Source: Silvibacterium dinghuense
GTDB taxonomy: Bacteria > Acidobacteriota > Terriglobia > Terriglobales > Acidobacteriaceae
DNA length: 64,000 nucleotides
Direction of reading: 5' to 3'
NCBI RefSeq assembly: GCF_004123295.1
Contig: NZ_SDMK01000001.1
Location: 1,860,001 to 1,924,000 of the forward strand
A program made the translations under genes and the position numbers. Positions 841 to 16,429 of the stretch are shown in pieces; position 1 is the first letter of the stretch; every line of letters begins with the position of its first letter. The notes below the pieces were generated by a model, which did no database searches, had not been told where the DNA came from, and worked only from the letters and a program-made list of their open reading frames with translations.

Positions 841-1008
841 TCCGGGTGCCCGCGAGGGCATAACAGGGAAGCCGGTGAGAAGTCCGGCACGGTCCCGCCA
901 CTGTAATCAGGACAATGGATCTTCCAAGAGCCACTCGGAAACGGGGAAGGCGGAGGATCTGAGCCGTCTCGTGACGGATCAACCTGTGAGTCAGGAGACC
1001 TACCCGGA
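841..1008 (+). ncRNA. Cobalamin riboswitch upstream of the Oar-type receptor
   Basis: The aptamer is recognisable from the B12-box core GCCACTG at 897-903 and the 3' landmark GAGTCAGGAGACC at 988-1000. The ends TCCGGGT (841-847) and ACCCGGA (1002-1008) pair as the closing P1 helix. About 90 bases separate it from the chosen receptor ATG, enough for an expression platform; the stretch 1034-1062 has G-rich and C-rich runs that could pair. Cobalamin riboswitches normally switch genes off when adenosylcobalamin is abundant, which implies that the following receptor handles corrinoids or a B12-sensitive function. Confidence 0.95.
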
Positions 1009-1098
1009 TCATTTTCGACTCTTCTCCGCGTGGAAACGGGGACGATCGCTCATCTCCCCCTGAGCCCTCGCGCCTTTTCATGCCCTGCGAGGTTACCG

Positions 1099-4000
1099 AT
1101 GGCCGGACAACGGCTCCGTGCTCTTTTATCTGCGGCTCTGCGAGCGTGTCTTCCCGCTCTTTCTGTCATTGCACTCCTTCTGAACTCGATTCCCGCACAC
1201 GCCGCCAGCGGAGGCAGCATCTCCGGCACAGTCACGGACTCCACCGGCGCCGTCATCGTGGGAGCCTCGCTCAAGCTCATCAACACCGCGCAGCAGACCG
1301 CTTGGCAGGCCTCGTCCGACAAGCAGGGACTCTACTCCTTCCCCGACCTTCCCGTAGGCCACTACGATCTCACCATCACCGCGGCCGGCTTTACCACGCA
1401 GAAAAAGACGGCCATCTCGGTCGATACCGATGCGGCTATCCGCCTCGATGTAGTGCTCGCCGTCGGCAGCCAGACTGACACCATCTCAGTCACCAGCGAT
1501 ACCGGCGCGCAGGTGGAAACAAGTTCGACGCATCTTGGCGAAGTCGTCTCTGGCGCACAGATGACGGCGCTGCCACTCAACGGCAGAAGTTATACTGACC
1601 TGCTCGCCATCCAGCCCGGCGTCGCGCCCATCTCCACGCTGCTTGCGAGCTCGGTCATCATGGCCGGCGTCACCGGCAGCCTCGACCCCTCCGGCGATCT
1701 GAATCCCGGCAACCTCTCGATCAATGGCCAGCGCGAGTCCTCGAACGGCTTTCTGGTGAACGGCATCGACGTGCAGGAGCACATGAACGGCGGCACGTCG
1801 ATCATTCCCAATCTCGATTCGATCGATGAATTTCGCGTGTTAACCAATAATTTCGATCCGGAATACGGCAACTATAACGGCGGCATGGTGACCGTCGTCA
1901 GCAAGTCCGGCGCCGGCCAGTTCCACGGCGAAGCCTTCGAATTCCTGCGCAACACCGATCTCGATGCGCGCGGCTACTTCGACCCCACGCGTCCCGCTTT
2001 CCGCCAGAATCAATTCGGTGGCACCTTCGGCGGACCGGTCATCCGGAATAAAGTCTTCTTCTTTGCCGACTACCAGGGCACGCGCACCACGCAGGGAATC
2101 TCGACAGGAAATATCTCTGTACCCACAACAGCGGAGCGCGGCGGCGATTTTCTCAACACTTCAACGCAGCAGAGCCTGTTGACCGGCAGCGTAAGCGGTT
2201 CCTATCTCGCGTCCCTGCTCAGCCAGGATCTCGGCTATACGGTGACCTCAGGCGAGGCCTACTCCTCGGTGTTCCCGAATGGCGTCATTCCAAAGAGCGC
2301 GTGGTCCGCACCAGCGAAGAACCTGCTGAAGTACATCCCGTCGCCCAATACCGGCTCCGACCAGTTCTCGACCTCGGCCTACGCCGAAACTGTCCGTGAC
2401 GACAAGGGCGCAATCCGCATCGACGCCAATAGTTGGATGGGCCAACTCTCCGGCTACTACTTCATCGACGACTACAACCTCGATAACCCTTATCCTGGCT
2501 CGGTCGCAGGCGCCACGATTCCGGGCTTCGACGCACTCACCATCGGGCGCGCGCAGCTCTTCTCCCTTGGAGACACGAAGGTCTTTGGCGCAACGACAGT
2601 GAATGAATTCCATCTCGGGTATCTGCGCAACGCCAACATCGTGGGACAGCCCAAGGGCGGCCTGGGCGTGACTCTAGCCTCGCAGGGCTTCGTCACCGGA
2701 GCCGATACGACTGGCATCTATGTGCAGGCGCCGCAGTATGAAGGCGTCGAGAACATGACCTTCCCGAGCTTCACCATGGGTGTGCCGATCACGAACATGA
2801 CACAGGTCAATAACACTATTTACCTCAGCGACGGCCTCTCCAAGGTGATGGGCTCGCACACGCTCAAAGCGGGCGGGCAGTTCCACGCCGATGAGGTGAA
2901 CGAGCATCCCAACGCGACCTTCAACGGCACCTTCAACCTGGATGGAACAGAAACCGGCTCCGCCTATGCCGATTTCCTCATCGGCGTGCCGAGCAACTTC
3001 ACGCAGTCTTCGGGCCAGCCCTTCTACCTGCGCAATCGCTACCTCGGCCTCTATGCGCAGGATAGCTGGCGCGCACGCAACAACCTCACCATCCATGCCG
3101 GTCTGCGCTGGGATATGATCATGCCCTTCTGGGAGAAGTACAACCAGATTCAGACCTACATCGCCGGAGAGCAATCCACGCTCTATCCCGGCGCGCCGTC
3201 AGGCCTTGTCGTCGCGGGCGACCCTGGAGTACCGAAGACGATTGCACCCACCGGCTACCGAAACTTCGCGCCGCGCCTGGGCATCGCCTACACACCGCAT
3301 CCCGAAAATGGCTTCCTGCAAACATTGCTGGGTAGCGGCGGCAAGAGCAGCATTCGCGCCAGCTACGGCCTCTTCTATACGCAGTTTCCCGGCCTGGCCG
3401 CAGGCATCATGTATGCCGTGCCACCCTTCGGCTACACCTACCTCAGCCCGGCTCCGCCACTGATGGCCACGCCGTTCATCACCGCGGCTACCGGCGTCGA
3501 TAACGGCCAGCGCTTTCCCTTCGACTTTCCCTCACATAGCATTTCGCGCTCAAACCCGGATACTTCTATCGATTGGGCAAACTTCATGCCTCTTTCGGCC
3601 GATCCGTTTTTCGATCATCGCAACCGCGCGCCATACATCAACAACTACATGCTCTCACTTCAGAGGCAACTCTTCCGCAATGCCATACTCACGGTGAGCT
3701 ATGTCGGGAACCAGGGACATCACATTCTCGCCGTCGTCTCCGCGAACCCCGGCAATTCTGCGCTATGCCTCAGCCTGAGCGGATGCGGGCCGTTTGGGGA
3801 AGACTCCAACTACACCGACAGCAGCGGAAACACCATCTACGGCACACGCTCGGGACAAACGGGTGGCTCACGCATCACCGACAGCGAGAACTACGGCGAG
3901 AACACGGCCGACAGCTCGATTGCAAACTCCAGCTACAACGCGCTCGAGACCACGTTGCGCTACCAGCACGCAGGCTCACAGTTCCTGCTCAGCTACGCCT

Positions 4001-4644
4001 ACGCAAAATCCATCGACCAAGGGTCGAACATCGGCGAACAACTGAATCCCATCAACCCGCGACAGAGCCGCGCCATCTCCGCATGGGATCAGAAGCACAG
4101 CTTCAAGGCGAGCTACACCTGGGCCTTACCCTTCGCTGCGCTGCTGCACAGAAACAATCGCATGACCAGCGACTGGAGCCTCTCCGGCAACACGCGCTTC
4201 GCCACAGGCTTCCCGGTGACACTTTACGACAACTCGGATAACTCACTACTCGGCACGCTCGGCAATGGCGTGAATAACTATCTGCTCGACACGCCGCAGT
4301 TCACTCCCGGCCCTCTGAAGATCAACACCAATGGCCGCAGCGGCAAAGCCGCCTTTAACACCGCGCTCTTCTCCGAGGAGACCGAAGGCATGCTCGGCAA
4401 CGCAAAGCGGCGCATGTTCTACGGCCCCGGCATCGAAAACTTCGATACGACGCTCGAGAAGGATGTACATTTCACCGATGCCCGCTCTCTCGCGCTTCGC
4501 CTTGAGTCCTTCAACGTCTTCAACCATGCCCAGTTCTACGGTCCAGCATCGGTAGATGGACAGATCGAGGACACGAACTTCGGCAAGATCGTCAGCGCAC
4601 AAGCGCCACGGCTTCTGCAGATAGCAGCAAAGTTCTCCTTCTGA
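1099..4644 (+). CDS. Oar-type TonB-dependent receptor under B12 riboswitch control
   Basis: A 1181-residue outer-membrane receptor. An N-terminal signal peptide ends near residue 35 (IPAHA). It is followed by a carboxypeptidase-regulatory-like Ig fold (GSISGTVTDSTGAVIVGASL), a TonB plug around the motif SINGQRESSNGFLVNGID, and a long beta-barrel ending in Phe (LQIAAKFSF), as outer-membrane proteins usually do. The ATG was chosen because GAGG lies 6 bases upstream and the signal peptide starts there; a GTG at 1030 is in frame but falls in the riboswitch expression platform. The size and layout match the Oar-like family that is expanded in Acidobacteria, whose ligands are mostly unknown, and not the shorter BtuB family. 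The riboswitch suggests corrinoid uptake. It converges with the minus-strand B12 operon, whose last stop is only 9 bases away. Confidence 0.92.
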   Translation: MAGQRLRALLSAALRACLPALSVIALLLNSIPAHAASGGSISGTVTDSTGAVIVGASLKLINTAQQTAWQASSDKQGLYSFPDLPVGHYDLTITAAGFTTQKKTAISVDTDAAIRLDVVLAVGSQTDTISVTSDTGAQVETSSTHLGEVVSGAQMTALPLNGRSYTDLLAIQPGVAPISTLLASSVIMAGVTGSLDPSGDLNPGNLSINGQRESSNGFLVNGIDVQEHMNGGTSIIPNLDSIDEFRVLTNNFDPEYGNYNGGMVTVVSKSGAGQFHGEAFEFLRNTDLDARGYFDPTRPAFRQNQFGGTFGGPVIRNKVFFFADYQGTRTTQGISTGNISVPTTAERGGDFLNTSTQQSLLTGSVSGSYLASLLSQDLGYTVTSGEAYSSVFPNGVIPKSAWSAPAKNLLKYIPSPNTGSDQFSTSAYAETVRDDKGAIRIDANSWMGQLSGYYFIDDYNLDNPYPGSVAGATIPGFDALTIGRAQLFSLGDTKVFGATTVNEFHLGYLRNANIVGQPKGGLGVTLASQGFVTGADTTGIYVQAPQYEGVENMTFPSFTMGVPITNMTQVNNTIYLSDGLSKVMGSHTLKAGGQFHADEVNEHPNATFNGTFNLDGTETGSAYADFLIGVPSNFTQSSGQPFYLRNRYLGLYAQDSWRARNNLTIHAGLRWDMIMPFWEKYNQIQTYIAGEQSTLYPGAPSGLVVAGDPGVPKTIAPTGYRNFAPRLGIAYTPHPENGFLQTLLGSGGKSSIRASYGLFYTQFPGLAAGIMYAVPPFGYTYLSPAPPLMATPFITAATGVDNGQRFPFDFPSHSISRSNPDTSIDWANFMPLSADPFFDHRNRAPYINNYMLSLQRQLFRNAILTVSYVGNQGHHILAVVSANPGNSALCLSLSGCGPFGEDSNYTDSSGNTIYGTRSGQTGGSRITDSENYGENTADSSIANSSYNALETTLRYQHAGSQFLLSYAYAKSIDQGSNIGEQLNPINPRQSRAISAWDQKHSFKASYTWALPFAALLHRNNRMTSDWSLSGNTRFATGFPVTLYDNSDNSLLGTLGNGVNNYLLDTPQFTPGPLKINTNGRSGKAAFNTALFSEETEGMLGNAKRRMFYGPGIENFDTTLEKDVHFTDARSLALRLESFNVFNHAQFYGPASVDGQIEDTNFGKIVSAQAPRLLQIAAKFSF

Positions 4645-4653: not shown

Positions 4654-5739
4654 TCAAAGAAAGTTTGCCATCTCTCCCGTGAGCGCCTTCAGCAGACGCT
4701 CATTCTCCGCATCGGCGCGAACCGCAACTCTCAAATGCCCTGGGGGCAACGCCTCATAATTGGCACAGTTGCGAAGGACCATGCGGTGCTCGCAGATCAT
4801 GCGCTCCCAGAATGCGGAAGCATCCACTGAGCCATGCAGGCGCAGCAGCAGAAAGTTCGCTGCGGCAGGATAGAACAAGATCCGAAGCTCCTCGAGCCTC
4901 CGCTGCAATCGCTGCCGGCGCTCTGCGTTCCGGGCAAGCGTGCGCTGCACATACGCCTCGTCCTGTACCGCACAGGCCGCAGCCAGCGAAGCGAGCGTGG
5001 TGATAGACCAAGGTGCAATCGCTTCCTGCATCCGGCTGCTCACCTCTCGAGAAGCAAGCGCATAGGCAACGCGCAGCCCCGCCATGCCAAAGAATTTGGT
5101 GACCGAGCGAAAAACGATGAGATGAGAGAATCGCTCAACTTCGCCGGAGAGTGTTGCCTCGGGGGCGTAATCGATAAACGCCTCGTCGAGAAAAACGACG
5201 ATGTTGCGCCGCGCTGCCTCTTCCACAATCTGCAGCAATGCCTCGCGAGATAACAGCACACCGGAAGGATTCTGTGGATTCGCCAGCAGCATCGAGTCGC
5301 ACTTACGCCCGAAGAGCGCACCCGGATCGATGCGGAAGTTTTCGTCAGAACGCCCCCTGTGCGGCATCACGGCCACGCCCGCTCGCTCCAAGGTTCGGCG
5401 ATACTCCACAAACGCGGGCATCGACACCAGACAACGCCGGACAGGCAGCACACGCAGCGCAGCATCCAGCAGTGGCACAAAGCCGTTCGATACCACGACA
5501 TGTTCAGCGTGAACACCCGCATACCGCGCGAGCGACTTCCGCAACTCCACTTCTTCAAAATCCGGATAATCCATCAGGACCGATGGATCGGCAAAAGCCT
5601 CCCTGAGCGCAGCCTGCACCGCATGCGGGGGCCCGTCAGGATTGATATTGGCGCTGAAGTCGAGCAGCTCGGATACGGGGATTCCGAAGCGGGCAGAGAG
5701 CGCGCGGAGCTGGCCTCCATGCAAAGGACGGAATTCCAT
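4654..5739 (-). CDS. cobC: CobC/CobD-type PLP enzyme, threonine-phosphate decarboxylase
   Basis: A 361-residue fold-type I aminotransferase-like protein of the histidinol-phosphate aminotransferase group. FSANINPDGPP near residue 28 is typical of the cobalamin branch. NPQNPSG (residue 155), Asp185 in FLDEAFIDYAPE and the PLP lysine Lys215 in SVTKFFGMAGLR are all present. The expected reaction is decarboxylation of L-threonine O-3-phosphate to (R)-1-amino-2-propanol phosphate, the linker that CbiB attaches to cobyric acid. The ATG at 5739 shares a base with the cbiB stop (TGATG) and follows GGAG; a TTG one codon earlier is also open. It is last in the B12 operon. Confusion with HisC is possible on sequence alone, but the context favours the B12 role. 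The naming differs between pathways (CobC in Pseudomonas, CobD in Salmonella). Confidence 0.88.
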   Translation of the reverse strand: MEFRPLHGGQLRALSARFGIPVSELLDFSANINPDGPPHAVQAALREAFADPSVLMDYPDFEEVELRKSLARYAGVHAEHVVVSNGFVPLLDAALRVLPVRRCLVSMPAFVEYRRTLERAGVAVMPHRGRSDENFRIDPGALFGRKCDSMLLANPQNPSGVLLSREALLQIVEEAARRNIVVFLDEAFIDYAPEATLSGEVERFSHLIVFRSVTKFFGMAGLRVAYALASREVSSRMQEAIAPWSITTLASLAAACAVQDEAYVQRTLARNAERRQRLQRRLEELRILFYPAAANFLLLRLHGSVDASAFWERMICEHRMVLRNCANYEALPPGHLRVAVRADAENERLLKALTGEMANFL

Positions 5740-6707
5740 CAACGCTTTCTCCGTGAATGAAGCACGCAGCCAAGAAGCACCGCAGCTCCAAGGCCCAACA
5801 GGCCGACAGCAGAAACCACGCGCACCGCTTTTTGCGCATCATGTAACTCGGGCGCTCGAAATCCTGCGCCGATCGGCTCCGCGGAGATAAATTCACCTGC
5901 GTAGCAGTTCCCGCCACCCAGACGTACTCCCAGCGCCCCGGCGATCGCGCTCTCCGGCTGCCCGGCGTTCGGGCTCTTATGGCAGTTTCCATCGCGCAGC
6001 CAGAGCCTCCACGCCCCTGCCGCATCCGCTTTCATCAGCCAGGAAGCGGCCACCACGGCCAGCGCCGTCATCCTCGCCGGAATGAAGTTCGCCGCATCAT
6101 CGAGACGCGCTGCGGCCTTGCCAAAGTAAAGGTAGCGCTCGTCCGCGTGCCCGATCATGGAGTCGAGCGTATTCACCGCCTTGTATGCCATGGCCAGCGG
6201 CACTCCGCCCAGGGCCATGTAGAAGAGCGGAGCCATCACGCCGTCTGAAGCGCTCTCCGCCACGGTTTCGATGACCGCTCGACTGATCTCCTGCGCGTCG
6301 AGGCTCTCCGTGTCGCGCCCCACGATGCGCGCGAGACGTGTGCGCGCCAGCGGGAGGTCATCGCCATTCAGCGCGGCAAGCACCTGCGAGGCTTCCTGCT
6401 GGAGATTGCGTGCGGCGAGACAGGTCCATCCAAAGCCGATCTCGGCAAGCCGACCAAGATGCGGCGAACAGCGAGATGCGCAGGCGAGCATGAGCCGCGT
6501 AAGGAGATAGCTGGAACCCACCACCGTCGCAGTCAACATCGCGCCGGCAAGCAATTGCTCTTCTCTACTCTGGCCTGGCCGCCTCAGCAGGGACTCGCCT
6601 CGGACGACAGCCGATCCCATCAGGCGGACAGGATGAGGAAACCACTCTGGATCGCCCGCAGCCTGATCCGCAAGATACACAGCGGGCAGAAGCAGTTGCG
6701 GTCTCAC
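5739..6707 (-). CDS. cbiB: Adenosylcobinamide-phosphate synthase CbiB/CobD
   Basis: A 322-residue polytopic membrane protein. It attaches aminopropanol (phosphate) to adenosylcobyric acid to give adenosylcobinamide (phosphate). The N-terminus has the family motif GDPEWFPHPVRLMG, followed by hydrophobic segments and internal motifs such as SESASDGVMAPLFY and KAVNTLDSMIGH. The GTG start was chosen because GTGA overlaps the stop of cbiP by four bases, the coupling seen across this operon; the frame is open further upstream but would overlap cbiP by 61 bases. The C-terminus ends in a hydrophobic helix and a basic tail. The neighbouring PLP enzyme supplies the aminopropanol phosphate, and cbiP supplies cobyric acid. 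Confidence 0.95.
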   Translation of the reverse strand: MRPQLLLPAVYLADQAAGDPEWFPHPVRLMGSAVVRGESLLRRPGQSREEQLLAGAMLTATVVGSSYLLTRLMLACASRCSPHLGRLAEIGFGWTCLAARNLQQEASQVLAALNGDDLPLARTRLARIVGRDTESLDAQEISRAVIETVAESASDGVMAPLFYMALGGVPLAMAYKAVNTLDSMIGHADERYLYFGKAAARLDDAANFIPARMTALAVVAASWLMKADAAGAWRLWLRDGNCHKSPNAGQPESAIAGALGVRLGGGNCYAGEFISAEPIGAGFRAPELHDAQKAVRVVSAVGLLGLGAAVLLGCVLHSRRKR

Positions 6708-8293
6708 AGCGCGATCTCGCGATGCTGTTCGGCCCGCACTGGCGCATACGGGAGTCCGGCCCATGCGAAGATGCTTGCCATATCAAGCGATTTTTGAACC
6801 ACTTCCGCAAGCCGATCGAATGATTCCTGCCTCTTCAGGCCCCAGGCATGAAGCTCGCCCGCGGGCTCAAGCTGGAAATACGCGCGAGCAGCCGCAAGAA
6901 AAGCATGGCGAAAACCATCTTCGTCGAAGAGCCCATGAAGATACGTGCCAACGATCCGCCGATCCGCATTGACGCACCCGTCGAATATCGCCTCCTGCGA
7001 GCCGTGCGCATGGCGGATAAGCTGCGCAAAGGGTTCACCAGAGCCGATATACATGGTCTCGCCGACATGAATCTCGTAGCCGCGCAGAGGAACATCCTGC
7101 ACCGGCTGGCCGAAGAGTGAGCCGGACGCGAGTTTTCCCGTAGCATTGCGCGTGATCTTCGCCGAACGCATGGTTGTACGGATCGGCAAAAGGCATAGTC
7201 CGCGCAGTTCTCCGTGGCTCTCTACTCCCTCAGGGTCGCAAATCGCCTCACCCAGCATCTGCATGCCTCCACAGATCCCAAGAACGAGGCCGTGGGCTGC
7301 ATGTACGAGCACCGCCTGTTCCAGGCCCGTGTCGCGCATCCAGAGCAAGTCATCGGCGGTCTGCTTACTGCCCGGCAGGATGACCACATCGGCCCCGCGC
7401 AGATCTTCCGGCTTGCGACAGAAGCGAACGGCCACCGACGGCTCAGCCAGCAACGCATCGAAGTCCGTAAAGTTTGAGAGCGAAGGGAAGCCGACAACGG
7501 CCATGCGCAGCGGCCTCTGTGCTCCGGAGATGGCCCATCGCGCATGCTGCTCCGCATTTACCGCAGGCAGCCCAAGGCTGTCTTCCTCTTCAAGCGCAAG
7601 CGCATCGAGATACGGCACCACACCGAGACATGGCTTGCCAAGCCGCTCTTCGATCATGCGGATGCCCGGCATAAGCAGCGATACATCGCCACGGAATTTA
7701 TTGATAACGAATCCGCGTATGCGCTCCCGCTCGTGCGGTTCGAGCAGCTCTACCGTACCCAGCAACGAGGCGAAGACACCGCCGCGGTCGATATCGCCGA
7801 CAAGCAGGCACGCGGCATCCGCCATCTCTGCCATGCGCATGTTCACGATGTCGTGCTGCTTCAAGTTGATCTCGGCGGGCGAGCCAGCGCCTTCGAGCAC
7901 GAGGACATCATGCTCCGCCGCCAGCGTCTCATAACTCTCGCGCACCCTCGGCAGCAGCTCATCCACGCGGCGAAGATGATACTCCGCCGCTGAAAGCCTG
8001 CCCCATATCCTGCCATGCACGATCACCTGCGAGCTCATGTTACCCGCAGGCTTCAGCAGGATCGGATTCATGTGTACAGACGGCGCAATGCCCGCGGCCT
8101 CGGCCTGCAGCGCCTGCGCGCGCCCGATCTCCAGCCCTTCCGGAGTTGCCGCGGAATTCAGAGACATATTCTGTGACTTGAACGGAGCGACGCTGTAGCC
8201 CTGCTGCGCAAAGATACGGCAGAGCGCAGCCGCGAGCAGAGACTTGCCAACGTGCGAAGACGTGCCGAGCACCATCATGGCGCGTGCCGTCAT
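6704..8293 (-). CDS. cobQ: Cobyric acid synthase CbiP/CobQ
   Basis: A 529-residue amidotransferase that performs four ATP- and glutamine-dependent amidations on adenosylcobyrinic acid a,c-diamide. The N-terminal synthetase domain begins with the nucleotide-binding loop LGTSSHVGKSLLAAAL and has PFKSQNMSLNS near residue 37. The C-terminal class I-like glutaminase domain carries Cys341 (LGICGGMQMLG) and His453 (GTYLHGLFDE). The length is close to the family norm of about 490-510, with a short extra C-terminus. The ATG overlaps the bluB stop as ATGA, with GAGGAG upstream. It implies that the cell can accept corrinoid intermediates earlier than cobinamide, or that ring synthesis is encoded elsewhere. 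Confidence 0.96.
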   Translation of the reverse strand: MTARAMMVLGTSSHVGKSLLAAALCRIFAQQGYSVAPFKSQNMSLNSAATPEGLEIGRAQALQAEAAGIAPSVHMNPILLKPAGNMSSQVIVHGRIWGRLSAAEYHLRRVDELLPRVRESYETLAAEHDVLVLEGAGSPAEINLKQHDIVNMRMAEMADAACLLVGDIDRGGVFASLLGTVELLEPHERERIRGFVINKFRGDVSLLMPGIRMIEERLGKPCLGVVPYLDALALEEEDSLGLPAVNAEQHARWAISGAQRPLRMAVVGFPSLSNFTDFDALLAEPSVAVRFCRKPEDLRGADVVILPGSKQTADDLLWMRDTGLEQAVLVHAAHGLVLGICGGMQMLGEAICDPEGVESHGELRGLCLLPIRTTMRSAKITRNATGKLASGSLFGQPVQDVPLRGYEIHVGETMYIGSGEPFAQLIRHAHGSQEAIFDGCVNADRRIVGTYLHGLFDEDGFRHAFLAAARAYFQLEPAGELHAWGLKRQESFDRLAEVVQKSLDMASIFAWAGLPYAPVRAEQHREIAL

Positions 8294-8985
8294 CGCCCGG
8301 GCTCCTCTGCATAACGGTCATACGAGACGACGGACTTCAGTTCCATGCGCGTCTCCCATCCGAAGCGCTCGAGATCCGGCTCCGCGGCAAAGCTTTCGAC
8401 GTACCCAAGGCAGAGATACGCGACCAGCGTCAGATGATCGGGGATGCGTAGCAGTTCATAAAGCGGCGCAGGATCGAGAATGCTGACCCAGCCAACGCCT
8501 ACACCTTCACTGCGCGCCGCCAGCCACAGATTCTGGATCGCGCACACTGTGGAATAGAGTGCCGTCTCCGGCATGGTCTGGCGCCCCAGCCCGTGCCCAC
8601 GTCCGCTGCCCGCGTCGCACAATACGCAGAGGTTTTGCGGAGCTTCCAGAATGCCCTCGAGCTTCAGACCGGAATACAGATTTGCACGTTCGTCGCTGTA
8701 GCTCGCAGCCGCCTTGCGGTTTGCAGTTTCAAATACTTCATGCACTTTTTTACGGATATTGTAGTCGCGGACGACGATCAAACGCGAAGGCTGCATCAGG
8801 CCTACAGAAGGCGCGCTGTGCGCGGCCGCGAGCAGACGTCCCAGTAACTCTTCTTCGAGCGGACGATCGAGGAACCCTCTGCGCACATCGCGGCGCCCGG
8901 CAATGGCGCGATAGACGGCCAGGCGCTCAGCCTCGCTGAAGCGAGACGGCCTATCCAACTGCGAGTTCATCGACTGCGTCACCAT
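8290..8985 (-). CDS. bluB: 5,6-dimethylbenzimidazole synthase BluB
   Basis: A 231-residue nitroreductase-fold flavoprotein matching BluB, which cannibalises FMNH2 with O2 to form the B12 lower ligand DMB. Typical features are AGRRDVRRGF near residue 31, APSVGLMQPSRLIVVRD, GLGRQTMPETALYSTVCAIQNLWLAARSEG (quoted in part as QNLWLAARSEG) and VGVGWVSI. The start is not certain. The ATG used here overlaps the end of pduO by 7 bases; a second ATG five codons on (8970) would give a protein starting MNSQLDRP. DMB made here is the substrate of CobT in the same operon. An oxygen-dependent route fits an aerobic soil bacterium. Confidence 0.93.
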   Translation of the reverse strand: MVTQSMNSQLDRPSRFSEAERLAVYRAIAGRRDVRRGFLDRPLEEELLGRLLAAAHSAPSVGLMQPSRLIVVRDYNIRKKVHEVFETANRKAAASYSDERANLYSGLKLEGILEAPQNLCVLCDAGSGRGHGLGRQTMPETALYSTVCAIQNLWLAARSEGVGVGWVSILDPAPLYELLRIPDHLTLVAYLCLGYVESFAAEPDLERFGWETRMELKSVVSYDRYAEEPGR

Positions 8986-9557
8986 GCTCTCGAAAACTTT
9001 GGCCCGGCGTTGGTATCTTCGCGAAGCCGGCTGTTCACACCCGCGCTGTGTTCGATACGGCGGCCAAAGAGCCAGATCACATCCGAGAGACGATTGAGAT
9101 AGGCCAGGACCTCGGGCTGCACGGCTTCTCCGCTCTCCACAAATCTCACTGCGCAGCGCTCGGCGCGGCGGCAAACCGTGCGCGCCACCTCATACGCGGC
9201 CGACTCCGTATGACCTCCAGGCAGCGACCAGTCGGCGAGGATGCCTTCCGTCGCTTCGATGTTGTGAACCAGTTCCGTAAGCTTGTCCACATCTTCCGCG
9301 CTGATCACCGGCGGCTTTTTGCGGCTCTCAGGCGGCGTCGCGAGCGCGGAGCCCACGCGGAAAAGCGTCCGCTGGATCTCCTCGGTCCACGTTGCGATCT
9401 CCTTGTCCTGACAGATGCTTCGTGCAAAGCCGAGATGTGTGTTCAGCTCATCCACGGTACCGTACGCCTCGACGCGCAGATGCGCCTTCGAGACCTGGAT
9501 GCCACCGGCGAGACCTGTCTGTCCGCCATCTCCACGTTTGGTTGCGATGCTCATCAT
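8979..9557 (-). CDS. pduO: PduO-type ATP:cob(I)alamin adenosyltransferase
   Basis: A 192-residue adenosyltransferase that transfers the adenosyl group of ATP to cob(I)alamin or cobinamide to form the Co-C bond. The N-terminal ATP-binding signature TKRGDGGQTGL is followed by EAYGTVDELNTHLG, and near the C-terminus come CRRAERCAVRF and LNRLSDVIWLFGR, all conserved in the PduO/CobO-like family. The first ATG of an ATGATG pair overlaps the stop of the upstream unknown gene and has GGAGA ahead of it. Adenosylation is needed before CbiP, CbiB, CobU and CobS act, so it fits this operon. Confidence 0.95.
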   Translation of the reverse strand: MMSIATKRGDGGQTGLAGGIQVSKAHLRVEAYGTVDELNTHLGFARSICQDKEIATWTEEIQRTLFRVGSALATPPESRKKPPVISAEDVDKLTELVHNIEATEGILADWSLPGGHTESAAYEVARTVCRRAERCAVRFVESGEAVQPEVLAYLNRLSDVIWLFGRRIEHSAGVNSRLREDTNAGPKFSRAW

Positions 9558-10354
9558 GCTTCTCCTTCGAGGGTATAGGCTTCTTCCACGGTGATGCGAA
9601 TGGTCTTGATGAGAGGCAGTCGCGCATATTGAATCACCAGCGCGTCGTCGAGAAAGTCGATCACACGCGGCGGCGTCGCCGACAAAAGCACAGCTTCCGG
9701 AAAGAACCACGGATGCACCGCTCCCAGCTCTGCGAGCGTTCCTGCATGAACGATAACGGCCGGCAGATGAAAGACTCCATCCCGCAGGCAATGATAAGCG
9801 CGGTGATAGCCGTCGCGCAGGAACCAGCGGCCGCGATACTCCGCCACTTCGAAGAACGGACTGCCTGTATGCACCGAGACCAGGCTCGCGGCATTACCGG
9901 TGATGCGGGCTTGCAGATTTGGATTGCCGGAGCGCAGCACAAGGGAGCCGCTGGCATGCGTCACATCGCAGGCCACCACCTTCGGCTCAGCAAAGCACAG
10001 CTGCATCAGACTATCCCAGTCGTCCGCAGCAGGAAGCGAAGATTCACTGGCCGCAGGAACGAGTGTGATCCGGCGCTGAAAGGCGATGAGCTTCCGCAGA
10101 TCAACCACGCCAAGCGACCAGGCAAGTCCAGCCATCTCGGCACGAAGATCAGCCCGCAGCGCGTGCTCTGCGAAGCCGGTCTGCAACGTAGAACTCGCGC
10201 ACTCTACCATCGCTGACTCCGCATCGAATGAAGGCCGCCGTGACAGCAGCGCACGCGCTGTATCCACATCGCCGCAATATTTAGCCGGGCGATACTCATC
10301 CTCGTCGAGCCCCCACGCCGCCAGCTCTCGAACCCACGTCGACGCCTTGCTCAT
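9554..10354 (-). CDS. Unknown protein embedded in the B12 operon
   Basis: A 266-residue soluble protein that I do not recognise. There is no signal peptide or membrane segment. An N-terminal half (residues 1-125) with several acidic helices precedes a beta-rich half. The most distinctive motif is WFLRDGYHRAYHCL near residues 177-190, resembling the DGxHR motif of ParB/sulfiredoxin-like folds, but this is only a local likeness. The ATG overlaps the upstream phosphatase stop as ATGA, and its own stop overlaps the pduO start, so it is translationally coupled to B12 enzymes on both sides. That placement suggests a role in corrinoid metabolism or its control, or simple co-expression. An alternative start 19 codons upstream lies within the phosphatase gene and is less likely. 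Confidence 0.85.
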   Translation of the reverse strand: MSKASTWVRELAAWGLDEDEYRPAKYCGDVDTARALLSRRPSFDAESAMVECASSTLQTGFAEHALRADLRAEMAGLAWSLGVVDLRKLIAFQRRITLVPAASESSLPAADDWDSLMQLCFAEPKVVACDVTHASGSLVLRSGNPNLQARITGNAASLVSVHTGSPFFEVAEYRGRWFLRDGYHRAYHCLRDGVFHLPAVIVHAGTLAELGAVHPWFFPEAVLLSATPPRVIDFLDDALVIQYARLPLIKTIRITVEEAYTLEGEA

Positions 10355-10908
10355 ATCAGCTTTCCTGCCTGACAGCGAAAATAGCCGCAGTAACTCTGCG
10401 TACGCTTCCATGCATCCTGCGCTTCGAGTCCGCAGATCGCCTGCAGTACAACACGCATGACACCTGCATGCGTCACTACCGCAGCCATCCCGTGTTCATG
10501 CCATGAGAAGAGTTCCTTCACGCAGCGCAGAACACGTGACTGGAAATCCTCGAAGCGCTCGCCGCCCGGCGCCGGCAGATGCGGAAACTCCGCAGACCAT
10601 CGCTGCGCATAAACCGGATCGCGCAACTCGATCTCTGTCCAGCTCAACATCTCCCACTCTCCAAAGAACATCTCGCGCAGCTCCGGCATGATAACGGGCT
10701 TCACTCCGAAGGCCCTTCCGATGGCATCCGCCGTGGTCCGCGCGCGCACAAGATCGCTCGTATACACAGCGTCGATGCAATCACGCTCGAGCTCCTTTAG
10801 CATCTGCTCCATCTGCTTCAGGCCTTTCGTATTGAGCGGCGGATCGGAATGTCCACAGAATCGTCCGGCCAGATCTGTCTCGGCGTGGCGGATAAAAAGC
10901 AGCGTCAT
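10351..10908 (-). CDS. cobC: Alpha-ribazole phosphatase, histidine phosphatase family
   Basis: A 185-residue histidine phosphatase with a complete active site: FIRHAETD (His8), GEW acid region (Glu84) and VVTHAGV (His147). In nucleotide-loop assembly such enzymes remove the 5'-phosphate of alpha-ribazole-5'-phosphate or of cobalamin-5'-phosphate, the product of CobS encoded just upstream. The ATG lies two bases after the cobS stop; a GTG four codons earlier would overlap cobS. The symbol collides with that of the PLP enzyme later in this operon because two naming schemes exist. The intact arginine contrasts with the phosphatase-like protein at 223-807. Confidence 0.88.
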   Translation of the reverse strand: MTLLFIRHAETDLAGRFCGHSDPPLNTKGLKQMEQMLKELERDCIDAVYTSDLVRARTTADAIGRAFGVKPVIMPELREMFFGEWEMLSWTEIELRDPVYAQRWSAEFPHLPAPGGERFEDFQSRVLRCVKELFSWHEHGMAAVVTHAGVMRVVLQAICGLEAQDAWKRTQSYCGYFRCQAGKLI

Positions 10909-10910
10909 CG

Positions 10911-11702
10911 CTAAATCCACACCCCACAGAGATACACCGCGATCTCGGTGAGCTGGTTGGTCGCTCCGAAGCAGTCACCCGTAATGCCGCCGATACGGTA
11001 CCGATAATAAAGCGCGGTCACGAGCGTCATGACGAGACTCGCAAGCACCGGAGCCAGAGCATGAGAGCGTAACAACGCAATTGCCATCACGAGGCTGAGC
11101 ACGCTGCCGATCACAAGGCTACCGGATGTCGTAAGCCGGGCAATGCGCGCCCCTTGCCCGTCCACCTGGTCTGCGCTGCTGTTTCGAGCCGGGGGAAGAA
11201 TGAAGCTGAGCGGCAATGTCGTCCACCGGCTCAGCACCGGAGCTACCAGCAGATAGGCACTCACATGGGTCTGCGGCAGCGAAGCAATAAGAAGCACACG
11301 AGCCAGCACACTCAGCACCACCGCCACCGCACCATACGTGCCGATGCGGCTGTCGCGCATGATCGCCAACACCTTTTCGCGATCCCATCCGCCGCCGAAG
11401 CCATCGGCTGCGTCGGCAAGCCCGTCTTCATGCAGGCAACCAGTGATCGCGATCATGTACACGACCACAAGCAGTGCCACCACCAGCGCAGGCAGATGCG
11501 GTGTGAGCGCGCGATCAAGAGCTGCACTGCCCGATCCAATCAACAACCCCACCAGAGGAAAGAACTTCACGGCGCGCGCCAGCGAATCCTGCTCGTAGGG
11601 AGGCGTCGGCACCCTTAGCCGAGTAAGGAACTGCACGGCCGAGAGCAGATCGAACCATGTACGCCGAGGCTGCACGCGCCGCATCTGCGCCCGCGGATTC
11701 AC
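10911..11702 (-). CDS. cobS: Adenosylcobinamide-GDP ribazoletransferase CobS
   Basis: A 263-residue integral membrane enzyme that joins adenosylcobinamide-GDP with alpha-ribazole(-5'-phosphate) to complete the nucleotide loop. The start QFLTRLRVP is typical, and the metal-binding acidic motif HEDGLADAADGFGGGWD followed by MRDSRIGTYG is characteristic. Several hydrophobic segments follow, and the C-terminal GDCFGATNQLTEIAVYL is the family's conserved tail. The GTG start overlaps the cobT stop as GTGA, with GGAG 7 bases upstream. CobT gives its alpha-ribazole phosphate substrate and CobU its GDP-cobinamide substrate. Confidence 0.96.
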   Translation of the reverse strand: MNPRAQMRRVQPRRTWFDLLSAVQFLTRLRVPTPPYEQDSLARAVKFFPLVGLLIGSGSAALDRALTPHLPALVVALLVVVYMIAITGCLHEDGLADAADGFGGGWDREKVLAIMRDSRIGTYGAVAVVLSVLARVLLIASLPQTHVSAYLLVAPVLSRWTTLPLSFILPPARNSSADQVDGQGARIARLTTSGSLVIGSVLSLVMAIALLRSHALAPVLASLVMTLVTALYYRYRIGGITGDCFGATNQLTEIAVYLCGVWI

Positions 11703-12766
11703 GGGGTCGCTCCGCTGATCCCCGCCGAGGTAAACGTGGCCATCCGATGGTAGAGCGCAATCGCGGACTCAATGACCGGCATGGCAAGAACCGCTCCCGT
11801 TCCCTCGCCAAGACGCATACCCAGTGAGAGCACCGGAGCGAGGCCCAGATGTTCGAGGAGGATGCTGTGTCCTGGCTCCTCCGAACAGTGGCCTGCGATG
11901 AGATAGCCGAGAGCATCGGGAGCCATGCCGACAGCGACCGCGGCAGCAGCGGTCGAGATAAAGCCATCGAGCACCATGACCATGCGATGCTGCGCCGCAG
12001 CCAGCACCACGCCAGCCATGGCAGCGATTTCGAAGCCTCCCAGGCAGCGCAGGATTTCAAAAGACGAGACAGCTGCAGGCGCAGAGAAATGCTTCGCCAC
12101 CGCTGCCTCTACCACGCGCACCTTATTCGCATACGTCGCCGGATTCGCGCCTGTACCGCGGCCTGTCGCACGTGAGGCGGTAGCGCCGGTTAGCGCACAG
12201 GTGATAGCGCTGGCCGCTGTCGTGTTGCCGATGCCCATCTCGCCGGTCGCGATGATAGAACAGCCAGCGGCCGCAGCCTCACTCGCCAGGCGATACCCCG
12301 TGTGCAGCGCGGCGAGCGCCTCTTCCCGGCTCATCGCCGGCGCATGCAGCATGTTGCGCGTGCCACGCTTCACCTTGTGGTGCAGCAGGCCGGGGATTTC
12401 ACCGAAGTCCGTATCCACGCCTACATCCACTACGTGCAGCGCCACATCATGTTGCCGCGCAAGCACGTTGATGGCTGCGCCGCCGGAGAGAAAGTTGTGC
12501 ACCATCTGCACCGTGACTTCGCGTGGATAGGCGCTCACGCCTGACTCCGCCACCCCATGATCGGCGGCAAAGACGTAGACTGCCTTACGAGCCGGCTCGC
12601 TCATGCGTTCTCTGCGGATGGCTGCGATCTGCGCGGCCATATCTTCGAGACGCCCCAGGCTTCCCAGTGGCTTGGTCAGCGTGTCGAGATGCTGACGCGC
12701 CCTGCTGCGCCACTCCTCACTCGGCCGTTCTATGCCGGACAGAAGCGCGCTTACTTCAGGCTCCAT
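11699..12766 (-). CDS. cobT: Nicotinate-nucleotide--DMB phosphoribosyltransferase CobT
   Basis: A 355-residue enzyme that activates the lower ligand: DMB plus nicotinate mononucleotide gives alpha-ribazole-5'-phosphate. Diagnostic stretches are TKPLGSLGRLED near residue 31, FAADHGV, GEMGIGNTTAASA near residue 175, and the catalytic Glu321 in RLGEGTGAVLAMP. The length is normal for the family. The ATG has a strong GGAGG and lies 16 bases inside the end of the BtuB-like receptor gene, so translation is probably coupled to the receptor. DMB should come from BluB in the same operon. Confidence 0.97.
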   Translation of the reverse strand: MEPEVSALLSGIERPSEEWRSRARQHLDTLTKPLGSLGRLEDMAAQIAAIRRERMSEPARKAVYVFAADHGVAESGVSAYPREVTVQMVHNFLSGGAAINVLARQHDVALHVVDVGVDTDFGEIPGLLHHKVKRGTRNMLHAPAMSREEALAALHTGYRLASEAAAAGCSIIATGEMGIGNTTAASAITCALTGATASRATGRGTGANPATYANKVRVVEAAVAKHFSAPAAVSSFEILRCLGGFEIAAMAGVVLAAAQHRMVMVLDGFISTAAAAVAVGMAPDALGYLIAGHCSEEPGHSILLEHLGLAPVLSLGMRLGEGTGAVLAMPVIESAIALYHRMATFTSAGISGATP

Positions 12767-15213
12767 GAAGACCCTCCAAAGTTGAACTGAACACCCGACC
12801 GGAAGGTGAGCGGAAGCGCAGGATAACCGAATGCCTCAAAATAATGCTCGCTCAAAAGGTTCTGGATATTGGTGTACACATTCACCCGATGCGAAACCTG
12901 ATAACCGCCGCCGAGCTCCAGCCGCTGATACGCGCCCAGCAGATTGCGATTCGGAAGCAGCAGGCTGGTACCGAAGTTCGCATCATAGAGGAAGTCGCTG
13001 TCGTCGCGGCGGCCGACCAGCGTGCCGCTCAGCGTGGCATAGAATTTCTTCTGCGTATAGTTGAGCGCGAAGTAGCCGGTATGCGGAGCGATGCGAAAGG
13101 GCCGCGCGCCGACCAGCGGAGAGTCGGCGCCGATGGGGACATTGCTGAAGCTCGACGCAGTGTTGTAACTGGGCGAGAGGTTATCGCTCGAGAACGAATG
13201 CTGCACCACGGCATCGGTGTAGGTATATCCGCCGCGAGTGAAGAGATGCGTACCCAGCTGATACTGTAGCTCGACCTCGGCGCCCTGCGCGCGATACGCA
13301 AGCGAGTTGATGTAGGCTCCGCCGTATTCGAAGGGCGGCAGATCGGCAGCCGGAATGCCCAGCTCGATGAGGCCGGCCTGCGGCACGTATTCCACTCCAT
13401 TCGTAAATGCATTGTGGAAGTACGTGACACCCAGAAGCCCGCGTCCTTTGAAGATCTGCTGATCCACGCCAGCATCGTAGGTGCGCGAATCTTCCGCTCC
13501 AAGCGGCGTTACGTGATACTGCGAGATCAGCTGCGCGCCATCGGAGAGCGGCTCCAGCAACCCGTAAAGTGAGTTGGTCTGGTCATAGACACTCGGCTCC
13601 TTGATGCCCTTGCCGAAGCTCGCGTGCAGCTTGGTGCCGTTGAAGAAACTACGGTCCGAAGGACGCACGAGGTAGTACGCAAGCGACGCACGCGGAGTCG
13701 CCGCAAATCCGAAAAGGCCGTTGTCTTCAAGCCCTGTGCCCAGGTTCCAGAAGAGCCGGTTGCGGACATCGCCGGAGAGCTGCAGCGTGTAGCTGTAGTT
13801 ATCGCGGCTGATCGTGCTCGGTGTCTCGCCGGTGTATCCCGCCGCGCCATACTCGTGCTCGTACTTAAATGCGCCGAGCGCCAGGAAGTGCGGCGTCACG
13901 CTGTAATCGCTCTGCGCGTAGACAAAGTCGCGGCTCGATGGCGACAGGTACTGCGAATAGGTATCGCTGTACTGAAAGATGGCCTGTCCATGCACAGAGT
14001 AGCCGTTGGCGCCGGTGATTGTGACCGGCGCGCCGAGCCAGTACCCGATCTCGGGATCGTAAATACCGGTCGCGCCAAAGTCGTTGTATTCGGAGTTCAG
14101 CCGCAGACCTCCGTAGCGAACCATGTTATGCCACTTATCCGTAGCCTGGTTATTCCAGGTCACGCCGTAATAGTTATCCTGCTCCTTCTGCTGCCCGTCG
14201 TCGGGGATGCCGTAGAGCGCAATGGCGTTCGGCTGACCACCGGAGACGATGACATGGCGTACGGTAAAGCGAAGATCGTTGGCCCGGTTCGGCGTCCATC
14301 CGAAGTTACCGGCATAGGTAGCATTGTGGAACTCGCTGTTCGGGATGTTGTTGTCGGTGTCGATGCGCGCAAAGGCCGAGTAGAGATCGAAATGCTTATA
14401 TGCCATGCCCGCGGTCACGTTGTTGCGATAGGTGCGGAAGTTGCCCGCCTCGCCGGCATAGGTGATGTAGGGTAGCTCCGTCGATCCGCACGGCGTGGTA
14501 AGACTGACGACACCGGCCAGCGCATCGGAGCCATAGAGCGCACTGTTCGGTTCGCGCAGCACTTCGATCGACTGGATGCCCGTGCTCGCGAGGTTGGCAA
14601 ACTCCACCGCTCCACCGATAGCATCGGCCGGGATGCCGTCGATCAGCACCTTGTTCGCATCCGATGCGCCGCCGCGGATGTACAGCGCAGTCGTGCCGCC
14701 CATCTCGCCGGTCTGCGTCATCTGCAGTCCTGGCACCAGGCGAAGCGGGTCCTGCACCTCGGCAGCATAGCGAAAGTCCTCGGACGGCATCACCGTCACC
14801 GAGGTTCCGGTCTGCGCTTCCGGCGTCGGAGCACCCGTCGAAGTAACCGTCACCTGCTGCGTGAGCGTGGGCGTGGCGAGCGTAACGTTCAGCTCGCCGT
14901 CTCCGGACGCGGAGAGATATACGCTCTGACTGCCGGCAGCCTGAAAGGATGGAGCAGCGGCGCGAATGCTATAACGCCCCGCAGCCGGGATTGCGAAATG
15001 GTACGCGCCGGTGCGGTCACTGCGCGTGCTGGCGATCACATGCTCATTCTCGACGAGACTCACCGCGGCATCGGCAACCGCCGCGCCCAGCGGATCGACC
15101 ACCGTGCCATGAAGCTCACCGAACTTCTGCGCCTGCAGAGTGGGGAACCATGACGGAGACAGGAAAAGTGCGAGAAAGCCACAGGTAGACAATCGACGTA
15201 CAAAAACAGACAT
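12751..15213 (-). CDS. btuB: BtuB-like TonB-dependent receptor with N-terminal regulatory-like domain
   Basis: An 820-residue outer-membrane receptor. A signal peptide ends at TLQAQ near residue 29, then comes a carboxypeptidase-regulatory-like domain (FGELHGTVVDPLGAAVADAA), then a classical plug with TALYIRGGASDANKVLIDGIP, then a 22-strand-type barrel. The plug and overall size are closer to BtuB than to the Oar family, and the gene sits directly behind a cobalamin riboswitch and ahead of cobT. The ATG with GGGGG just upstream was chosen; the open frame continues upstream only through the riboswitch. The C-terminus runs a few residues past FNFGG, overlapping cobT. The role is import of cobalamin or cobinamide, powered by TonB; no periplasmic or inner-membrane BtuFCD genes are in the window. 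Confidence 0.92.
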   Translation of the reverse strand: MSVFVRRLSTCGFLALFLSPSWFPTLQAQKFGELHGTVVDPLGAAVADAAVSLVENEHVIASTRSDRTGAYHFAIPAAGRYSIRAAAPSFQAAGSQSVYLSASGDGELNVTLATPTLTQQVTVTSTGAPTPEAQTGTSVTVMPSEDFRYAAEVQDPLRLVPGLQMTQTGEMGGTTALYIRGGASDANKVLIDGIPADAIGGAVEFANLASTGIQSIEVLREPNSALYGSDALAGVVSLTTPCGSTELPYITYAGEAGNFRTYRNNVTAGMAYKHFDLYSAFARIDTDNNIPNSEFHNATYAGNFGWTPNRANDLRFTVRHVIVSGGQPNAIALYGIPDDGQQKEQDNYYGVTWNNQATDKWHNMVRYGGLRLNSEYNDFGATGIYDPEIGYWLGAPVTITGANGYSVHGQAIFQYSDTYSQYLSPSSRDFVYAQSDYSVTPHFLALGAFKYEHEYGAAGYTGETPSTISRDNYSYTLQLSGDVRNRLFWNLGTGLEDNGLFGFAATPRASLAYYLVRPSDRSFFNGTKLHASFGKGIKEPSVYDQTNSLYGLLEPLSDGAQLISQYHVTPLGAEDSRTYDAGVDQQIFKGRGLLGVTYFHNAFTNGVEYVPQAGLIELGIPAADLPPFEYGGAYINSLAYRAQGAEVELQYQLGTHLFTRGGYTYTDAVVQHSFSSDNLSPSYNTASSFSNVPIGADSPLVGARPFRIAPHTGYFALNYTQKKFYATLSGTLVGRRDDSDFLYDANFGTSLLLPNRNLLGAYQRLELGGGYQVSHRVNVYTNIQNLLSEHYFEAFGYPALPLTFRSGVQFNFGGSSWSLK

Positions 15214-15235
15214 GTTCCCCCTCGGGTTCGTGCTG

Positions 15236-15388
15236 CAGCCGGGCCGGTCTCCTGACTCGCGCGTCATCGAGCAAGTGCTGCCTTCCGGGAGCCAGGCTCC
15301 AGTGGCGTTAGAACTTCCTGCACTTCTCTCTGCGCTCACAGTTACGGGGTAGTGGCGGATTTGCACCGCGCTTCCCGACACCCTGCTG
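15236..15388 (-). ncRNA. Cobalamin riboswitch upstream of the btuB-like operon
   Basis: Read on the minus strand, the B12-box core GCCACTACCCCG is complementary to 15343-15354, and the 3' landmark GAGTCAGGAGACCGG lies just before the receptor. CAGC and GCTG at the ends (15385-15388 with 15236-15239) can close the P1 helix. Only about 22 bases separate the aptamer from the receptor ATG, and that stretch includes the GGGGG ribosome-binding site. Control by blocking ribosome access is therefore likelier than transcription termination. It should control all ten genes downstream. Confidence 0.95.
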
Positions 15389-15461
15389 GTGATGATGTTC
15401 CGTGAATACACTCCCTGCATCGAAACGGACCGCGACAGTCCATTTCGATCACAGGAAAACG

Positions 15462-16016
15462 CTAAGGCGCGGAAGCCGCCATACCCTTCAATGTGAGCGG
15501 CAGCCCCGCCACCATGAGGACCACATGATCAGCGAGGGCCGCGACACGCTGGTTGATCTCGCCCAGCAGATCGCGATAGCGCCGCCCCAGCTCGAAGGCC
15601 GGAACTACTCCGCTGCCCACTTCATTCGATACAAGGATCACAGAGCAGGGCGCTGCCTTCAATGCAGCACAAAGATCAGCAACAGCCTTCGACAGCCCGT
15701 CGGGATCGCCGCTGAAGGTGTCGAGCAGCTTGCCCGCATATAAGGTGAGGCAGTCGATAACCAGCAGATCACAATCCTGCACCGATCCAATCGTCTCAGC
15801 CAGCCGCAGCGGCTCTTCGATTGTCTTCCAGTGCCCGGGCCGCTCGGCTCGATGGCGTTCGATCTTGCGCCGCATCTCTTCGTCATCCCGCCGCTCGGCG
15901 GTGGCGAGAAACGTTACACGGTCAGCATGCGAGGCGAGTTCGAGCGCATAACGGCTCTTGCCGCTGCGCACCCCGCCCAGGACGAGGGTTACGCGCGAAG
16001 GTGCAGGTGTGAACAT
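15462..16016 (-). CDS. cobU: Adenosylcobinamide kinase/guanylyltransferase CobU
   Basis: A 184-residue bifunctional enzyme that phosphorylates adenosylcobinamide and then makes adenosylcobinamide-GDP, the substrate of CobS. The P-loop LGGVRSGKSRYA is at residues 13-24. The guanylylation region HRAERPGHWKTIEEP follows near residue 54, with the Walker B-like VIDCLTLYAGKLL and VSNEVGSGVVP further on. It has its own riboswitch about 140 bases upstream, and another lies between it and the receptor operon. This gives two B12-controlled transcription units on the same strand. Confidence 0.96.
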   Translation of the reverse strand: MFTPAPSRVTLVLGGVRSGKSRYALELASHADRVTFLATAERRDDEEMRRKIERHRAERPGHWKTIEEPLRLAETIGSVQDCDLLVIDCLTLYAGKLLDTFSGDPDGLSKAVADLCAALKAAPCSVILVSNEVGSGVVPAFELGRRYRDLLGEINQRVAALADHVVLMVAGLPLTLKGMAASAP

Positions 16017-16159
16017 GCTCGGCTTTCCGGCGCTCGCCAGGGCGAACGCACAAAGGCAAAGCGGGAAGGAACGAGAAATCCGCTGCCACGTGATCCGGAA
16101 GGTGATCCCGTGCTCATGCTCTTCAACTCTCCCATCGAAGTTGAATCAGCCCGGACTGG

Positions 16160-16305
16160 CATCTGGCCGGTCTCCTGACTCACGCCTCACTGAAATCGAG
16201 CGGCCTTCCCAGAACTTCAGTCCCAGTGGCGCAAAATGCCGATCTCTCCGCGTTCACAGTTACGGGGTAGTGGCGGATTCGCACCGCCTTCCCGAACACC
16301 AGATG
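16160..16305 (-). ncRNA. Cobalamin riboswitch upstream of cobU
   Basis: On the minus strand the aptamer begins CCAGATG (16299-16305) and ends CATCTGG (16160-16166 read on plus), a perfect 7-bp P1. Inside are the B12-box core GCCACTACCCCG (around 16263-16274) and the 3' landmark GAGTCAGGAGACCGG. A leader of about 143 bases follows before cobU, longer than in the btuB leader, so the expression platform may work differently. The core sequences of this and the btuB riboswitch are very alike, suggesting duplication. Confidence 0.95.
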
Positions 16306-16429
16306 TCTTGAAAGATACCGTCCGGCTGCCGGAAGGTCAACGCCTGCAGCCGATGCAGGGGAACGTCTTCCTCCGCATGCACAGGAACTCTGGATTTTGA
16401 GTGGAAAACTGCAGAAAAGGATTAAAAGC

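Follow-up and report, generated by a model that had tools for sequence, protein, structure and literature searches.

Within the 64,000 nucleotides of the Silvibacterium dinghuense genome analysed here (the window), a cobalamin (B12) operon contains one gene without an assigned function, and the question raised by this locus is what this gene, referred to as UNK, contributes to the pathway. The frame was read as 266 amino acids plus a stop codon. At the junction with the preceding gene (GCTGATATGAGC), the TGA stop codon of cobC shares four nucleotides with the UNK start codon (ATGA), and at the junction with the following gene (GGAGAAGCATGATGAGC), the TGA of UNK overlaps the first of two tandem pduO ATGs (ATGA). 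When the junctions were surveyed in 28 loci, including the window's own locus, the exact 4-nt overlap between the upstream gene and UNK was present in 24 and that between UNK and pduO in 18; other spacings towards pduO occurred in five loci, and for five the pduO start pattern gave no start. An earlier description made from the letters alone (the sequence-only reading), of an unrecognised 266-residue gene whose start and stop overlap its neighbours, was thereby confirmed. Since frame, place and overlap are conserved over 27 other copies of UNK, a chance reading frame can be excluded.

Sequence comparison did not assign UNK to a family: nothing above cut-off was found in Pfam, NCBIfam, PHROGs and PDB sequence searches. 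The best E-value in the PDB searches, performed with the UNK protein and two profiles, was 0.19, matches which we took for chance, and the serine kinases SerK and SbnI were not retrieved from the PDB by the UNK sequence profiles. The VapB-like family PF23719 matched 23 of the 28 UNK members weakly at E-values up to 0.5 (best E 2.3e-5), and the scores inspected (12.1-24.5 bits) do not reach the curated cut-off of 27 bits. At the same permissive limit PF02195 (ParB) matched none of the 28 members, and no helix-turn-helix was listed for UNK in the Pfam scans.

The operon is read from the minus strand behind a cobalamin riboswitch, in the order btuB-like-cobT-cobS-cobC-UNK-pduO-bluB-cobQ-cbiB-cobD (Table 1). 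For the receptor gene at its head we propose the ATG after the riboswitch as the start, and its place in the operon points to B12 as the substrate. Among seven relative loci scanned, six contained cobalamin riboswitches and none was found in the stretch covered of the seventh (L054). The statement of the sequence-only reading that all neighbours act on corrinoids proved slightly too wide, in that bluB, cobT and cobC serve the lower ligand and cobD acts on threonine phosphate. A third cobalamin riboswitch of the window (827-1021) precedes a large gene of the TonB-dependent-receptor type (1030-4644, plus strand).

Table 1 Features of the B12 operon, sites within UNK and loci of plasmid relatives. 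Positions refer to the window unless a locus is named.
Feature	Position	Strand	Basis
Cobalamin riboswitch ahead of cobU	16148..16318	-	RF00174, 99.8 bits
cobU, adenosylcobinamide kinase/guanylyltransferase	15462..16016	-	model match
Cobalamin riboswitch heading the operon	15225..15400	-	RF00174, 90.2 bits
TonB-dependent receptor, btuB-like, at the head of the operon	12751..15213	-	Plug PF07715, 68.4 bits
cobT, nicotinate-nucleotide--DMB phosphoribosyltransferase	11699..12766	-	model match
cobS, adenosylcobinamide-GDP ribazoletransferase	10911..11702	-	model match
cobC, alpha-ribazole phosphatase	10351..10920	-	156.8 bits, below cut-off 162.9
UNK, predicted ParB/sulfiredoxin-type fold, candidate L-threonine kinase	9554..10354	-	ORF, homologues, structure model
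UNK part matched by sulfiredoxin/ParB/SerK structures, about residues 67-242	9629..10156	-	crop residues 8-183
UNK Q93-R94-R95, invariant in 29/29 rows	10070..10078	-	alignment
UNK Box II, D181-G-Y-H-R185, invariant in 29/29 rows	9800..9814	-	alignment
pduO-type corrinoid adenosyltransferase	8979..9557	-	model match
bluB, 5,6-dimethylbenzimidazole synthase, start approximate	8290..8985	-	TIGR02476, 278.8 bits
cobQ, cobyric acid synthase	6704..8293	-	model match
cbiB, adenosylcobinamide-phosphate synthase	5739..6764	-	model match
cobD-type threonine-phosphate decarboxylase	4654..5742	-	best model TIGR01140, 282 bits, below cut-off 290.55
Plasmid relatives of UNK	L196:5799-6951, L197:5689-6906, L082:about 7430-8666, L083:1334-2593		

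A family survey of 200 genomes returned 23 matches at an E-value of 0.001 or better, which comprised strong UNK copies in 15 genomes (own genome included), one distant relative (in genome G063) and seven sequences (L017-L023, E 1e-4 to 7e-4) that were dropped, as they align with each other and not with the UNK motifs; L017, the only one of these that was scanned, is a periplasmic binding protein (PF01497). In a survey of the phylum (396 genomes), 16 genomes matched. The 15 strong ones all belong to the family already surveyed, and the remaining one (G372), from a different family, carries two distant copies. Five more loci came from a collection scan, where one (L072) is the contig of L025/L066 with an identical protein and was counted once. 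Altogether, 27 distinct strong copies were obtained beyond the window's own; the strong copies apparently belong to the Acidobacteriaceae, a family name taken from the L025/L066 contig, which is that of a named strain, Granulicella rosea; one locus (L071) is labelled Rhodanobacteraceae.

All of these 27 copies lie immediately before pduO, so that the tie to B12 genes suggested for the unnamed gene holds in every close relative seen. The upstream gene is cobC, except in G174, which gave no match to cobC and has cobS in this position. Each of 25 UNK loci seen at 15-21 kb contains cobT, cobS, pduO, cobQ, cbiB and cobD, and cobC (24/25), cobU (24/25) and bluB (23/25) are nearly as constant, counts that refer to the locus only. 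Compared with the window, UNK has a median identity of 44 per cent, and cobC and cobD have 51 per cent each.

Counting CbiB by PF03186 in apparently the same 200 genomes, we found strong UNK in 15 of the 22 genomes with cbiB and in none of the 178 without it (Fisher p 1e-17, not corrected for phylogeny). A profile search revealed no strong UNK elsewhere in the seven cbiB genomes that lack it, G063 having its distant copy only. In two of the seven (G111, G199) the contigs end inside cobQ and the place of UNK falls outside them; in G071 the contig breaks off within cbiB (44 per cent), and G063 and G100 show a divergent cbiB (34 per cent) and other gene arrangements. The last two, G137 and G142, both drafts of 77 per cent completeness, contain the series cobU-cobT-cobS-cobC-pduO-cobQ-cbiB (L117, L118), in which cobC is directly followed by pduO with no UNK between them and bluB is missing between pduO and cobQ; in G142, bluB, cobD and a corrin-ring gene are located on another contig. 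As these two drafts keep the operon without UNK, the gene is typical of the operon without being indispensable to it. The corrin-ring gene PF02570 was detected in seven of the 15 genomes with UNK, the window's genome being among those that lack a match, and UNK therefore tracks the late pathway rather than ring synthesis.

Which step of the late pathway is vacant? According to profile models, the window encodes PduO, CobQ, CobD, CbiB, CobU, BluB, CobT, CobS and CobC. Absent from these is an L-threonine kinase, the enzyme that feeds CobD according to PMC6249242, PMC8123684 and PMC7242693, and no gene of the operon other than UNK lacks an assignment. A second function is vacant as well, because a cobalt reductase for PduO is likewise not encoded in the operon. 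Such a reductase prepares adenosylation; the adenosyltransferase needs reduced cobalt. In addition, a step without an annotated gene need not be missing from the cell, since a survey finds pduX missing from most verified B12 producers and the cobD annotation missing along with it.

The known L-threonine kinases are PduX, a member of the GHMP family, and the non-orthologous BluE of Rhodobacterales. An annotated PduX-type L-threonine kinase used as a control scores 46 bits with PF00288 (GHMP kinase; cut-off 22.3), and UNK itself does not match this family. Five members above cut-off are present in the window's genome, which is 99.9 per cent complete; three of them pass their NCBIfam cut-offs as GalK, ThrB and IspE, and the GalK-like and HddA-like ones do not. 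The PduX control aligned with these five proteins over short stretches only (best E 0.001), and by both comparisons the genome yielded no GHMP kinase resembling PduX. A similar picture was obtained for two further UNK genomes (G130, G174), each with three PF00288 matches, whose closest counterparts in the window's genome are GalK, ThrB and IspE. Among the genomes without strong UNK, the PF00288 proteins of G137 resemble GalK, IspE and ThrB and those of G142 ThrB and an HddA-like protein, with no PduX in either; two GHMP proteins of G063 and G071 (L128, L131) are candidate PduX copies for which NCBIfam gave HddA/mevalonate-kinase-like matches below the cut-offs. G063 has a corrin-ring gene and cobD, but only the distant UNK relative. 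Its locus L175 (6081-8702) also holds an 873-residue frame with similarity to CobD (35 per cent) as well as to CobQ (44 per cent), which looks like a fusion of the two.

Structure prediction, which the sequence-only reading had suggested as a check, returned the ParB/sulfiredoxin superfamily with a model of middling confidence. For a first AlphaFold2 model from six sequences (pLDDT 60.3), the structural matches already included sulfiredoxin, SerK and SbnI as well as ParB and Noc. The second model, a crop from residue 60 to which one distant relative from a viral contig was added, reached a pLDDT of 72.8 and a pTM of 0.70. Ranks 1-32 of the VIA-align comparison were all occupied by sulfiredoxin, ParB, Noc, KorB, PadC, SerK and SbnI structures or by Atu1540, a solved protein of no stated function (Z 3.8-6.8); the first unrelated chain, a small heat-shock protein, followed at Z 2.4, and one ParB (1vz0) was found down at 2.1. 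The top match was sulfiredoxin 6ky4 (Z 6.8, rmsd 2.5 over 85 residues), and the list further contained Atu1540 2hwj (Z 6.7, rmsd 3.6, 105 residues), Noc 7ng0 (Z 5.8, rmsd 2.8, 82 residues), SerK 5x0g (Z 4.8, rmsd 3.4, 73 residues) and SbnI 5uje (Z 4.4, rmsd 4.5, 98 residues). Foldseek gave no E-value below 0.05 in the PDB, and none passes 0.001; in a viral structure library, the named matches among the best 50 listed were mostly ParB/sulfiredoxin proteins. In single hhalign comparisons, UNK matched untrimmed ParB domains weakly (E 0.036 and 0.0098) and trimmed ParB domains and a SerK segment at E 1e-4 to 3e-4, with probabilities of 38-56 per cent. Based on these models, UNK appears to have a fold of the ParB/sulfiredoxin type, a call we make despite the modest Z and E-values because the list of matches is homogeneous and covers one domain.

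The conserved residues agree with this assignment. In an alignment of 29 rows (28 distinct sequences), the invariant positions include E10, W14, D17, E73, D85, Q93-R94-R95, P145, G164, E169, R176, R180-D-G-Y-H-R185, P228-P229 and D233. The sequence GxxR, by which Box II of the fold is recognised, is present as G182-Y-H-R185 in all rows, and the motif FLRDGYHRAYH, which had been noted earlier as loosely similar to ParB and sulfiredoxin folds, falls at this box of the predicted fold. Box II reads VDGHHR in SerK and IDGVHR in SbnI, both sharing the aspartate of the UNK motif, and GERR in 11 ParB domains from related genomes. The distant UNK relatives outside B12 operons show NGSHR or NGYHR, the exception being the DGYHR of G063; as the latter protein is encoded in a flagellar locus, DGYHR alone does not mean threonine. 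Further upstream, Q93 and R95 line up with the Q-x-R of ParB in one alignment, at a place where its confidence is zero. Glu30 of SerK, the residue mutated in the trapped structures 5x0e and 5x0j, faces either Q93 (by eye) or I96 (combined alignments) of UNK, neither of them acidic and in a region where the register is unreliable; the pairing with Q93 was abandoned, its register being unsupported by later alignments.

On this basis, we tentatively propose that UNK could be a ParB-fold L-threonine kinase of B12 linker supply, a reading to which we give somewhat less than an even chance. UNK would bind an NTP and convert free L-threonine into L-threonine O-3-phosphate. CobD, whose gene closes the operon, would decarboxylate this product to the aminopropanol phosphate used by CbiB, and UNK would thus stand in for PduX and BluE without being orthologous to either. 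The proposal takes up the operon place, the riboswitch, the predicted fold, the DGxHR motif and the lack of a PduX-type candidate in the genome, all of which were computed. Fold, motif and the hole in the pathway suggest, rather than prove, nucleotide binding, kinase chemistry and substrate. PMC12704722 and PMC5120207 describe two kinases of free serine, SerK and SbnI, that have this fold; against a threonine substrate, PMC5120207 states that SerK does not use threonine. The G137 and G142 operons, without UNK and without PduX (G142 with cobD), also argue against the threonine kinase, as do the non-acidic residues opposite SerK Glu30 in both registers and the failure of sequence profiles to find SerK or SbnI.

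The sequence-only reading had expected a step or regulator in cobinamide salvage or lower-ligand handling. Its B12 link stands, and gene content moves the role to the aminopropanol linker, which we favour because UNK is kept without bluB in two and without cobC in one of the 25 loci, and cobD and cbiB are present in all. A role linked to BluB and the lower ligand was for this reason set aside as first choice, with bluB counted in the locus only. A literature search with most subscription papers outside it retrieved neither a ParB-fold threonine kinase nor the UNK gene in Acidobacteria. For the threonine kinase step of B12 synthesis, UNK offers a candidate whose reaction can be tested and which also occurs in Granulicella rosea. 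If the proposal is true, a fold known mainly from chromosome segregation would gain a further kinase of free amino acids.

Other functions of the same fold have to be weighed against the threonine kinase. A DNA clamp of the ParB type was rejected, since neither a helix-turn-helix nor PF02195 is listed for UNK. The fold serves ParB as a nucleotide switch, as described in PMC12704722, and UNK might accordingly be an NTP-dependent switch or partner that tunes the pathway, for example via PduO or CobQ, instead of a catalyst. The frequent translational coupling to pduO (18/28) would suit such a role, as would the invariant Q93-R94-R95, which is nearer to the ParB Q-P-R than to SerK in the zero-confidence region of the alignment. 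However, the Pfam scans list no feature of a ParB family protein, Box II carries the aspartate of the amino-acid kinases and not GERR, and the threonine kinase step would stay empty, so that we regard a switch as unlikely.

Phosphotransfer to a different B12 precursor, such as alpha-ribazole or a lower-ligand derivative, is also supported by the fold of SerK and SbnI and by the position of UNK behind cobC, whose product removes the phosphate from alpha-ribazole phosphate. This kinase or transferase is still less probable than the switch in our view, given that UNK persists in loci lacking bluB or cobC and always occurs with cobD and cbiB, and that with BluB and CobT present an alpha-ribazole kinase would presumably not be needed. 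A sulfiredoxin-like redox enzyme, for instance a corrinoid reductase serving PduO, would explain why the best structural matches are sulfiredoxins and would supply the cobalt reductase that the operon does not name next to its adenosyltransferase. The catalytic cysteine of sulfiredoxin lies in a GCHR motif, and what we take to be its position is occupied by Tyr183 in all 29 rows of the UNK alignment, where no cysteine is among the invariant residues; sulfiredoxins may, moreover, rank high as small single domains. Because of this replacement of cysteine by tyrosine, we rank sulfiredoxin chemistry low and consider it very improbable.

Outside the B12 operons, distant relatives of UNK (20-24 per cent identity) are located in peptide-export and flagellar loci. 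A position of homologues mostly away from cobalamin genes, named by the sequence-only reading as speaking against its view, is thus found for the distant relatives but not for the close homologues. Plasmid relatives were identified in Paracoccus, Rhodobacter, Methylobacterium and Blastomonas, and all four follow an ORF of 47-60 residues with an MRDL or MREL start, a GAG and a tail rich in serine and in lysine or arginine (23-31 per cent serine after the GAG). In three of the four loci, genes for HlyD and a peptidase-domain ABC transporter, whose peptidase domain we assume to be of the C39 type, come directly after; in Blastomonas, a 2OG-Fe(II) oxygenase gene follows the UNK relative, with exporter genes nearby. 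The Blastomonas locus also contains, behind the oxygenase gene, a second small ORF of the GAG type without serine repeats (L083:3516-3698). Both distant copies in G372 (L042:5536-8959, L041:3503-6723) lie behind a gene with HlyD domains, in one case together with an M50 peptidase match, and the relative in G063 (L062:9946-10860) is placed between motA/motB and fliC-fliD-fliS. A search of viral contigs yielded one distant relative (L177:4449-5378 on IMGVR_UViG_3300037104_001062) near a terminase gene; the same contig carries a frame read as an integrase. A motif screen revealed no similar small ORF near the G372 copies or the viral-contig copy.

The small MRDL/MREL-GAG ORFs, the UNK relatives and the exporters possibly form an undescribed modified-peptide system, and the serine-rich neighbours are compatible with hydroxyl chemistry across the superfamily without being proof of it; a literature search of the scope given above found nothing on ParB-like proteins in RiPP clusters. 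Taken further, UNK would found an unnamed superfamily of hydroxyl kinases with the ParB/Srx fold, in which the B12 member phosphorylates free L-threonine, adding an independent third solution to those of PduX and BluE, and the NGxHR cousins phosphorylate Ser-repeat peptides of an undescribed class that bear a leader of the double-glycine type and leave through the peptidase-domain ABC exporter. We regard this joint reading as rather doubtful.

In comparison with known systems, the Paracoccus and Blastomonas relatives (24 and 22 per cent identity to UNK) belong to the same superfamily and share its Q93, H184, R185, P228-P229 and D233, but have NGYHR in place of DGYHR. The ParB and Noc CTP switches are like UNK in fold and in the GxxR of Box II, whereas UNK differs from canonical ParB/Noc proteins by its place in a B12 operon and by the lack of GERR and of a listed PF02195 or helix-turn-helix. 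PduX has the same proposed reaction and pathway place as UNK and comes from a different family, GHMP; for BluE, the reaction is, by description, the one proposed for UNK. SerK (Thermococcus TK0378) and SbnI differ from UNK in that no sequence-level match was obtained by profile search, UNK is extended by about 60 residues at the N terminus and has more sequence between the first strand and Box II, and SerK Glu30 could not be paired with an acidic residue. They resemble UNK in fold and in the D-G-x-H-R of Box II, and the reaction proposed for UNK would be the same as theirs, carried out on the methyl homologue of serine.
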